A DNA stretch of 64,000 nt, from contig VXRD01000073.1 in the NCBI GenBank assembly GCA_009838845.1, forward strand, positions 1 to 64,000, given 5' to 3'. This document shows positions 46,612 through 48,052 of this stretch, one piece after another. Source of the DNA: Gemmatimonadota bacterium (GTDB lineage: Bacteria; Latescibacterota; UBA2968). The translations under genes and the position numbers were made by a program. Under the pieces are notes generated by a model. That model worked only from the letters and a program-made list of their open reading frames with translations, did not search any database and was not told where the DNA came from. Every line of letters starts with the position of its first letter. The first letter of the stretch is position 1.

Positions 46612-46655
46612 AGAAAATCAAACGGCTTGACTTGGGGGGGTGAAGTCGTTATTTT
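46611..46655 (+). repeat. Right copy of the 45-bp promoter-bearing direct repeat
   Basis: It still contains a copy of the end of the DCC gene (codons KENQTA-stop against KEDQTA-stop on the left), although no DCC gene precedes it here. This marks it as a remnant of the original gene order. Confidence 0.8.
46627..46655 (+). promoter_or_regulatory. Promoter of the trpS leader
   Basis: TTGACT, 17-base spacer, TATTTT, 28 bases before the first leader-peptide ATG. The spacer is G-rich where the left copy is T-rich. Confidence 0.75.
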
Positions 46656-46683
46656 CTTCGGCGGTATATCACGGGAGTTTGTT

Positions 46684-46782
46684 ATGACTATGTACGATCA
46701 CACTTTAACTGATGCGACGCTGGCTCCCCGTGTGTCTGAAACCGTCCGTGGTTGGTGGCGTGCCGCTGTGTGGGTTTGCTGA
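46684..46782 (+). CDS. Trp leader peptide 1 (32 residues)
   Basis: ATG at 46684 after GGGAGTTTGTT. The sequence ends GWWRAAVWVC-stop, with TGG codons at 46753-46758 (tandem) and 46771-46773. The stop overlaps a segment (46778-46785, gctgacgg) that is an exact complement of the 5' arm of the following terminator (46818-46825, ccgtcagc). This is the organisation of a classical Trp attenuator: a ribosome stalled on the tandem Trp codons would leave the segment free to break the terminator, whereas one reaching the stop would cover it. trpS follows. Confidence 0.75.
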   Translation: MTMYDHTLTDATLAPRVSETVRGWWRAAVWVC

Positions 46783-46813
46783 CGGATTGTATTTATTTGA
46801 GAATTCTGAATTG

Positions 46814-46839
46814 ACCGCCGTCAGCTTTTTGACGGCGGT
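46814..46839 (+). terminator. Attenuator 1 terminator hairpin
   Basis: A 10-bp perfect stem (accgccgtca / tgacggcggt), 6-base loop, eight Ts. It is mutually exclusive with pairing of 46778-46785 to 46818-46825. Confidence 0.88.
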
Positions 46840-46860
46840 TTTTTTTGTAGTAGGTATGCG

Positions 46861-47031
46861 ATGTTTTTGAGTGCGATGACAGAGCTGTTTAATGTTGGCA
46901 GACGCTGGTGGTGGACAGGCGCAATGGGAGATGTATGTCCACCACCGGATATCTGGCGATCTTTGTTTGCTTGCACCGCGCGCTACCGGAAGGTGGCGCG
47001 CTTTTTTTTTGGAAATTATGGAGATTTTTAA
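46861..47031 (+). CDS. Candidate Trp leader reading frame 2 (56 codons, WWW)
   Basis: ATG at 46861 with a weak TAGGT upstream (a second in-frame ATG is at 46876). Codons 16-18 are TGG TGG TGG (46906-46914), with a further TGG at codon 32. These codons form one arm of a 13-bp hairpin (46905-46917 with 46936-46948). Unlike ordinary leader peptides it has no stop before the terminator; it reads through the hairpin and ends 22 bases before trpS. It may be a true leader or only the footprint of an RNA element. Expression is unproven. Confidence 0.5.
   Translation: MFLSAMTELFNVGRRWWWTGAMGDVCPPPDIWRSLFACTARYRKVARFFFGNYGDF
46905..46996 (+). promoter_or_regulatory. Attenuator 2: sequestering hairpin and antiterminator
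   Basis: The Trp-codon arm 46905-46917 pairs with 46936-46948 (13 bp, one wobble). If freed, 46939-46948 can instead pair with 46986-46996 (5 bp, a small internal loop, 4 bp), which would take away the loop and parts of both arms of terminator 2. That gives the mutually exclusive 1:2, 2:3 and 3:4 pairings of trp-type attenuation. Confidence 0.55.
46978..47001 (+). terminator. Attenuator 2 terminator hairpin
   Basis: A 10-bp stem (gcgcgctacc / ggtggcgcgc, one wobble), GGAA loop, then a run of nine Ts. It ends 52 bases before the trpS ATG. Confidence 0.88.
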
Positions 47032-47053
47032 TAGTTCAAAGAAAGGAACAGAC

Positions 47054-48052
47054 ATGAGTCGCACAATTGTTTTAACAGGTGATCGCCCGACGGGTAAAAT
47101 GCATTTGGGGCATTATGTCGGGTCGTTGAAGAATCGGTTTGAGATGCAGGATGAGTTTCAGTGTTTTTTTATGATTGCCGATTATCAGGCGCTGACGACG
47201 CATAGGGACCGGACAGAAGATCTGGAGCATCACGTCAGAGAAATGGTGCTGGATTATCTGGCGGCGGGATTTGATCCCAAAAAAAGCGTTTGTTTTTTGC
47301 AATCACAGGTGCCGCAACTGGCAGAGTTAACCATGATTTTTTCCAATTTGGTGACGTTGCCGCGTTTGTTGCGGAATCCAACGGTTAGGGAAGAGATGGG
47401 TAAGATGGGGTTGGGGAATCGGGTGCCTTACGGGTTTGTGGGATATCCGGTGTCTCAGGCGGCGGATATTTTGCTTTTTCGTCCGCGATATGTGCCGGTG
47501 GGGCCAGATCAAAGACCCCATATTGAACTGGCGCAGGAAGTGGCTGCGCGATTTAATCGGATTTATGGCGAGGTGTTTCCCATTCCCGATGGCGTTTATG
47601 GCACGCGCTTGAAGGGCACAGATGGTCAGAGTAAGATGGGGAAGAGCTACGGCAATGCTATTGATTTGTCGGATAGAGAAACGTCTGTGCGGGCAAAGGT
47701 GATGAATATGGTTACCGATCCGGGGCGGGTGCGGGCAACTGATCCGGGAAATCCCGGTGTGTGTTCGGCATTTCACTATCGAGAGGTGTTTGATGAAGAG
47801 AATGCCGAGCAGGTGGCAAGGGCCTGCCGCAGTGGTTCGGTTGGCTGTACGACGTGTAAAGGCGCGTTGGCAGATGTGCTGAATGATTTTATGACGCCGT
47901 TTCGGATACGTCGCAAGGGTTTTGAAGAACAGTCCGATCTGGTGCGCGATATTTTGAATCTGGGCGGTTCGAGGGCGCGTATTGAAGGGCAACGCACACT
48001 GGAACACGTCAAGGAGGTGATGGGGATGGGGTATAATGCGTTGATGGGGTGA
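47054..48052 (+). CDS. trpS: Tryptophanyl-tRNA synthetase
   Basis: 332 residues, the usual bacterial length. The class-I signature is MHLGHY (HIGH-like, residues 16-21) and the KMSKS loop appears as KMGKS in QSKMGKSYGN near 197. GDRPTGKMHLGHYVGS and the Trp-pocket region are typical of TrpS. AAAGGAACAGAC precedes the ATG at 47054. Upstream in-frame ATGs (from 46892) lie inside the second attenuator and are rejected. The leader makes control by charged tRNA-Trp very likely. Confidence 0.95.
   Translation: MSRTIVLTGDRPTGKMHLGHYVGSLKNRFEMQDEFQCFFMIADYQALTTHRDRTEDLEHHVREMVLDYLAAGFDPKKSVCFLQSQVPQLAELTMIFSNLVTLPRLLRNPTVREEMGKMGLGNRVPYGFVGYPVSQAADILLFRPRYVPVGPDQRPHIELAQEVAARFNRIYGEVFPIPDGVYGTRLKGTDGQSKMGKSYGNAIDLSDRETSVRAKVMNMVTDPGRVRATDPGNPGVCSAFHYREVFDEENAEQVARACRSGSVGCTTCKGALADVLNDFMTPFRIRRKGFEEQSDLVRDILNLGGSRARIEGQRTLEHVKEVMGMGYNALMG

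Follow-up and report, generated by a model that had tools for sequence, protein, structure and literature searches.

Why should a tryptophanyl-tRNA synthetase gene (trpS) lie behind two short reading frames, each of which carries a run of Trp codons and is associated with its own terminator? This arrangement occurs in an uncultured Latescibacterota bacterium, in a window of 64,000 nucleotides (the whole stretch of DNA that we analyzed), and all of the features that we describe at this locus are on its forward strand. We propose that two serial ribosome-mediated transcription attenuators, both sensing charged tRNA-Trp, control what is an auxiliary TrpRS gene, a reading to which we assign a probability of roughly 0.8 on the basis of sequence comparison. 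That the elements are leader-peptide attenuators is very likely, and that both of them act in series is probable. A preliminary description of the locus had reported a promoter, a 32-codon leader with TGG TGG ... TGG, a second frame with TGG TGG TGG, two terminators ahead of trpS, and one alternative pairing for each terminator. Sequence inspection, translation, and promoter and terminator scans placed all of these features exactly where they had been reported, and fold calculations reproduced both pairings to the nucleotide.

The leader transcript is predicted to start from a sigma-70-like promoter (46627..46655, TTGACT-17-TATTTT, 9/12 consensus match in the scan), the -35 element of which is TTGACA in many relatives and which reads TTGACA-17-TATTCT in another genus. 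Leader peptide 1 (46684..46782) comprises exactly 32 codons in translation (MTMYDHTLTDATLAPRVSETVRGWWRAAVWVC*), with Trp at codons 24 and 25 (46753..46758) and again at codon 30 (46771-46773). Its TGA stop codon falls inside segment 2 of attenuator 1 (46778..46785), a position that the preliminary description had missed. Segment 2 pairs perfectly over 8 bp with 46818-46825 to form the predicted antiterminator (-12.6 kcal/mol), compared with -20.2 kcal/mol for terminator 1 (46813..46846), which was detected by the scan as a stem at 46813-46840 followed by a T-run and is conserved. Among the 12 genomes that carry attenuator 1, leader 1 has frame-keeping indels, and in every one of them it retains two or three adjacent Trp codons and ends on or before segment 2, always ahead of the terminator. 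The antiterminator keeps 98.9% of its pair cells among these relatives; one pair is CG in a genome of another genus (L010) and UA or UG in the others.

Leader frame 2 (46861..47031 by translation) begins at ATG 46861, or at the in-frame ATG 46876, and continues through segment 2 and terminator 2 to a stop at 47029. Its Trp codons, TGG TGG TGG (46906..46914), have counterparts of two or three Trp codons at the same place in relatives. As had not been recognized in the preliminary description, the Trp run doubles as segment 1: CUGGUGGUGGACA (46905-46917) pairs with UGUCCACCACCGG (46936-46948) in a predicted 13-bp hairpin 1:2 (46905..46948, -24.1 kcal/mol). Segment 2 (46939..46950) reads Pro-Pro-Pro-Asp in frame, and in the predicted antiterminator its portion CCACCACCGG (46939-46948) pairs with CCGGAAGGUGG (46986-46996) through 9 bp interrupted by a small internal loop (-11.1 kcal/mol), compared with -21.7 kcal/mol for terminator 2 (46978..47010), a scanned element with a 10-bp stem (46978-47001) followed by nine T. 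Because segment 2 pairs mostly with the terminator loop and 3' side, attenuator 2 would compete late, a point against the proposed mechanism. With a ribosome placed on the Trp run in the model and RNA ending at 46990-46996, the antiterminator was the lowest-energy fold and the terminator stem was still incomplete. Fold modelling gave a similar pairing between segment 2 and the terminator arm in the seven sequences that represent family f1; for the second family, the antiterminator was weak in one genus and was not predicted in genus g7, where another competing fold appeared.

Both attenuator regions fold better than all 200 shuffled sequences (z = -3.0 and -4.7), more than chance would give. 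In attenuator 2, 10 of 23 pairs had both partners changed, compared with 3.0 in shuffles and no more than 3 in slid controls, in an alignment that was fitted to the structure and thus favours covariation. The changes occur in helix 1 (the 1:2 stem) and helix 3 (the terminator stem), whereas the antiterminator pairs hardly vary and are therefore backed by conservation and not by covariation. The preliminary description had looked for compensatory base changes, and the 1:2 and terminator stems of attenuator 2 supplied them; in attenuator 1, covariation is weak because its pairs vary little. Conservation in relatives had been set beforehand as a check that could overturn the proposal, and the comparison found both the Trp runs and the pairings conserved. 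The claim of two serial Trp attenuators thus held in its main parts, as the Trp runs, segment 2, pairings, and terminators are maintained throughout the genus and also in a second one, and attenuator 2 co-occurs with a TrpRS paralog across the order.

From the frames, Trp runs, predicted structures, conservation, and paralog co-occurrence, we infer the following course of events. A single transcript would start near 46660, and a ribosome would translate the short Trp-run frame at each attenuator. When Trp-tRNA is ample, the ribosome would move on and cover segment 2, allowing the terminator to form and halt RNA polymerase; in leader 1, it would pause at the stop codon within segment 2. When Trp-tRNA is scarce, the ribosome would stall on the Trp run, so that segment 2 could engage part of the terminator and transcription would continue. 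If translation did not occur at all, the 1:2 hairpin of attenuator 2 would sequester segment 2, with termination as the default. Since trpS would be reached only past both switches, their read-through probabilities should multiply; the preliminary description had suggested that such a series would make the response to charged tRNA-Trp steeper or graded.

The two elements differ in distribution within the phylum. A first covariance model, for which family f1 supplied the attenuator 2 sequences, gave matches in 19 of 64 Latescibacterota genomes, including three second-family genomes that the model had not seen (E 7e-7 to 1e-9); one of the 19 (G059) looked chance-like on reading. A second model that included the new members detected attenuator 2 in 18 of the 21 genomes of the order. 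It precedes a TrpRS paralog in 17 of these 18 (a broken copy in L062), and in the remaining one (G012) it runs off the contig end, with the downstream gene beyond view. The three genomes of the order that lack attenuator 2 each have a single TrpRS gene and no paralog. As far as both are visible in the assembled sequences, genomes of the order thus have either both attenuator 2 and the paralog or neither. Ten weak extra matches elsewhere in the genomes were attributed to chance, seven of them being one homologous stretch in a sulfatase-like gene. Attenuator 1 is found in 11 genomes of genus g1 and in L010 of genus g3, mostly with a promoter-like sequence upstream, and is absent from the other genera checked; two genomes of g2 and g4 (L009 and L014) have attenuator 2 alone. 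As attenuator 2 is order-wide and attenuator 1 is confined to two genera, the tandem appears to be young and the second switch old. Furthermore, in the three second-family genomes (L059, L060, and L061), the element and the paralog lie directly downstream of the housekeeping trpS, and this location of the element, between the housekeeping gene and the paralog, suggests that attenuator 2 is probably the older part. We also asked whether attenuator 1 arose by duplication of attenuator 2; their terminators and segments were unlike by eye, so we treated the two as unrelated.

This uneven distribution is what would be expected if only attenuator 2 regulated the gene and attenuator 1 were weak, had been added recently, or represented the terminator of an independent small RNA, with no true serial logic; the genomes with attenuator 2 alone point the same way. 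However, the Trp run of attenuator 1, its stop on or just before segment 2, its antiterminator, and its terminator are kept in 12 genomes of two genera, with frame-keeping indels, and the single promoter-like site that a consensus scan found upstream of the leaders precedes attenuator 1. We therefore regard regulation by attenuator 2 alone as unlikely and favour two switches in series. A separate observation concerns the Trp runs themselves: throughout the genus (46753-46758, 46906-46914, and 10 relatives), the runs contain either two and three or three and two Trp codons, always five in total. The two types are scattered on a tree of trpS plus trpE with at least three changes, from which it follows that the runs were exchanged together or are balanced.

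One feature of attenuator 2 counts against the serial-attenuator reading: textbook leaders have a stop ahead of the terminator, whereas frame 2 has none. From the Trp run to the terminator, no stop interrupts frame 2 in any relative that was read, an openness that had escaped the preliminary description. Six of seven genera keep the frame open across the whole terminator; in the remaining one (L061), a TGA occurs within the terminator 3' arm. Ahead of that arm, frame 0 is closed by a stop in 0/7 genera, as against 6/14 in the other two frames; a hand calculation gives about p = 0.06, so that the absence of a stop is only suggestive. Representatives have 92, 98, or 101 nt between the Trp run and the end of the stem, all in one phase; the window's own subclade has four extra bases in this interval and is out of the common phase.

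Such an open frame would also be found if attenuator 2 worked like pyrBI/pyrL, with a ribosome close behind RNA polymerase blocking the terminator so that translation itself acts as the antiterminator. An effect of translation on an intrinsic terminator is on record: in E. coli lacking EF-P, polyproline pausing upstream of the terminator raises termination, whereas cells that have EF-P show little effect (PMC5021804). On the other hand, trpS expression would then fall when Trp is short, and the conserved pairings of segment 2 with the Trp run and with the terminator would be left unexplained. A pyrBI/pyrL-like switch is accordingly quite improbable, and we return to Trp-dependent attenuation through segment 2. 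The codons on segment 2 specify Pro-Pro-Pro-Asp in five genera; one further genus has PPPS and another PTPG. Genus g7 uses CCG and not CCA as its first Pro codon, a silent difference by which a U-A pair of helix 1:2 becomes U-G. A pause on these Pro codons may take the place of a stop codon, although the codons are also fixed by RNA pairing. Outside the Trp and Pro runs, the leader codons showed no constraint at the amino-acid level (variable sites by codon position 14/13/12 and 11/11/16), as expected for leaders, though this is no proof of translation.

What is the gene behind the two switches? The window protein (trpS, 47054..48052, 332 aa) scores 270 bits against TIGR00233 (tryptophan--tRNA ligase), for which the cut-off is 176.75, has a HIGH-like HLGH and a KMSKS-like KMGKS motif, and is closest among solved structures to Deinococcus radiodurans TrpRS II (2a4m, E 2.6e-87). 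The same genome contains a second TrpRS gene (G000:C143), which lacks the leader and whose product is 46% identical to the window protein. The leader-bearing paralogs form one side of a branch with support of 100, apart from the housekeeping trpS genes, in front of which a search for attenuator 2 gave no match. Judged from these sequences, the attenuated gene is the auxiliary and not the housekeeping TrpRS, a distinction that the preliminary description had not drawn. The window protein and all other leader-bearing paralogs contain no Trp residue, and the housekeeping copies have one; we rejected the Trp-free protein as a special mark, as several distant TrpRS of the same group are Trp-free as well. 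In addition, the trpS reading frame can be extended back without a stop to ATG 46892, across terminator 2 (46892-48052, 386 aa), and a gene caller could therefore set the trpS start too far upstream.

The paralogs have repeatedly lost KMSKS or HIGH. Three genomes (L011, L012, and L013) share an in-frame deletion of about 84 residues that takes KMSKS, and pairwise dN/dS of 0.05-0.08 among their paralogs indicates purifying selection. In the second family (L059, L060, and L061), the paralogs fall below the TIGR00233 cut-off and their catalytic motifs are degenerate or lost; two g7 paralogs with degenerate motifs have a dN/dS of 0.38. The paralog copy of G004 is broken by stops. Putting these features together with frame 2 yields a wider picture, which we offer tentatively and consider doubtful as a whole: attenuator 2 would be a stop-less leader-peptide attenuator in which PPPD slows the ribosome on segment 2, the role of the stop codon in trpL; its terminated RNAs would be non-stop messages needing ribosome rescue; and the guarded paralog, in some lineages kept without the catalytic KMSKS loop, would serve something other than ordinary tRNA charging. 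The genome contains tmRNA.

T-boxes control trpS in many Firmicutes, but sensing of Trp by a T-box or another translation-independent RNA element is a very remote prospect here, as an Rfam scan of the window found no family at its cut-off and the leader had no T-box match even at E up to 10. Leaders of a related kind may occur elsewhere in the order. Upstream of trpE in most of its genomes (L104-L123), there is a short frame with many Trp, Phe, and Tyr codons, which in the window's genome (L102, G000:C15) reads MNAFATYFWYFWRRFDGRYYYYRRPSKSVVCPAC* and is followed by a terminator-like hairpin. This trpE leader is a candidate aromatic leader-peptide attenuator, from which it would follow that such control is not unique to trpS in the order, and it suggests that the clade uses this type of control. 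In another genome (G002, L068), a threonyl-tRNA synthetase-like gene is closely preceded by a terminator-like hairpin with a T-run.

Among known systems, the enteric trp operon leader (trpL, RF00513) likewise combines a Trp-run leader peptide, mutually exclusive antiterminator and terminator, and a T-run. Attenuator 1 alone, at 46747-46844, aligns to the whole RF00513 Trp_leader model (1-100), with 19.7 bits, below the 41-bit cut-off. The present locus differs from trpL in that the gene is trpS and not trpE, two elements stand in series, and frame 2 lacks a stop before the terminator. A single Trp leader-peptide attenuator before a TrpRS gene was reportedly described for trpRS1 of S. coelicolor by Vecchione and Sello in 2010. 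In Streptomyces avermitilis, trpS2 is also predicted to follow a classical Trp leader-peptide attenuator, but a single one and in Actinobacteria (PMC1262725). The preliminary description knew of no trpS with two serial ribosome-mediated attenuators, and our literature search likewise found none. Nor did it find tandem leader peptides for the same amino acid or any attenuation in Latescibacterota, although subscription papers were mostly outside the search and such absence is weak evidence. Since attenuated trpS genes and tandem leader attenuators are already known, the apparently new part, which we could not find described, is the serial arrangement for one amino acid.

If the reading is correct, leader-peptide attenuation extends to Latescibacterota, and the locus would achieve steeper, multiplicative control by RNA alone and could serve as a natural experiment on whether attenuators in series sharpen a response. 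It also draws attention to the TrpRS paralog, which is conserved but loses catalytic motifs, under purifying selection in one lineage, in a manner comparable in kind to HisZ. In bacilli, His leader peptides occur upstream of the hisS* and hisZ paralogs (PMC2965389), which are likewise a case, from neither Proteobacteria nor Actinobacteria, of a leader-peptide attenuator on a duplicated synthetase-like gene; they differ in sensing His instead of Trp, in belonging to Firmicutes, and in not being described as tandem. A counterpart in architecture is Salmonella mgtCBR, whose tandem leader-ORF attenuators mgtM and mgtP were called a singular example (PMC3641672): two short frames in one leader, each in an attenuator-like switch, are arranged in series. 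In mgtCBR, however, the two frames sense different signals, ATP and proline-tRNA, whereas here both carry Trp runs.
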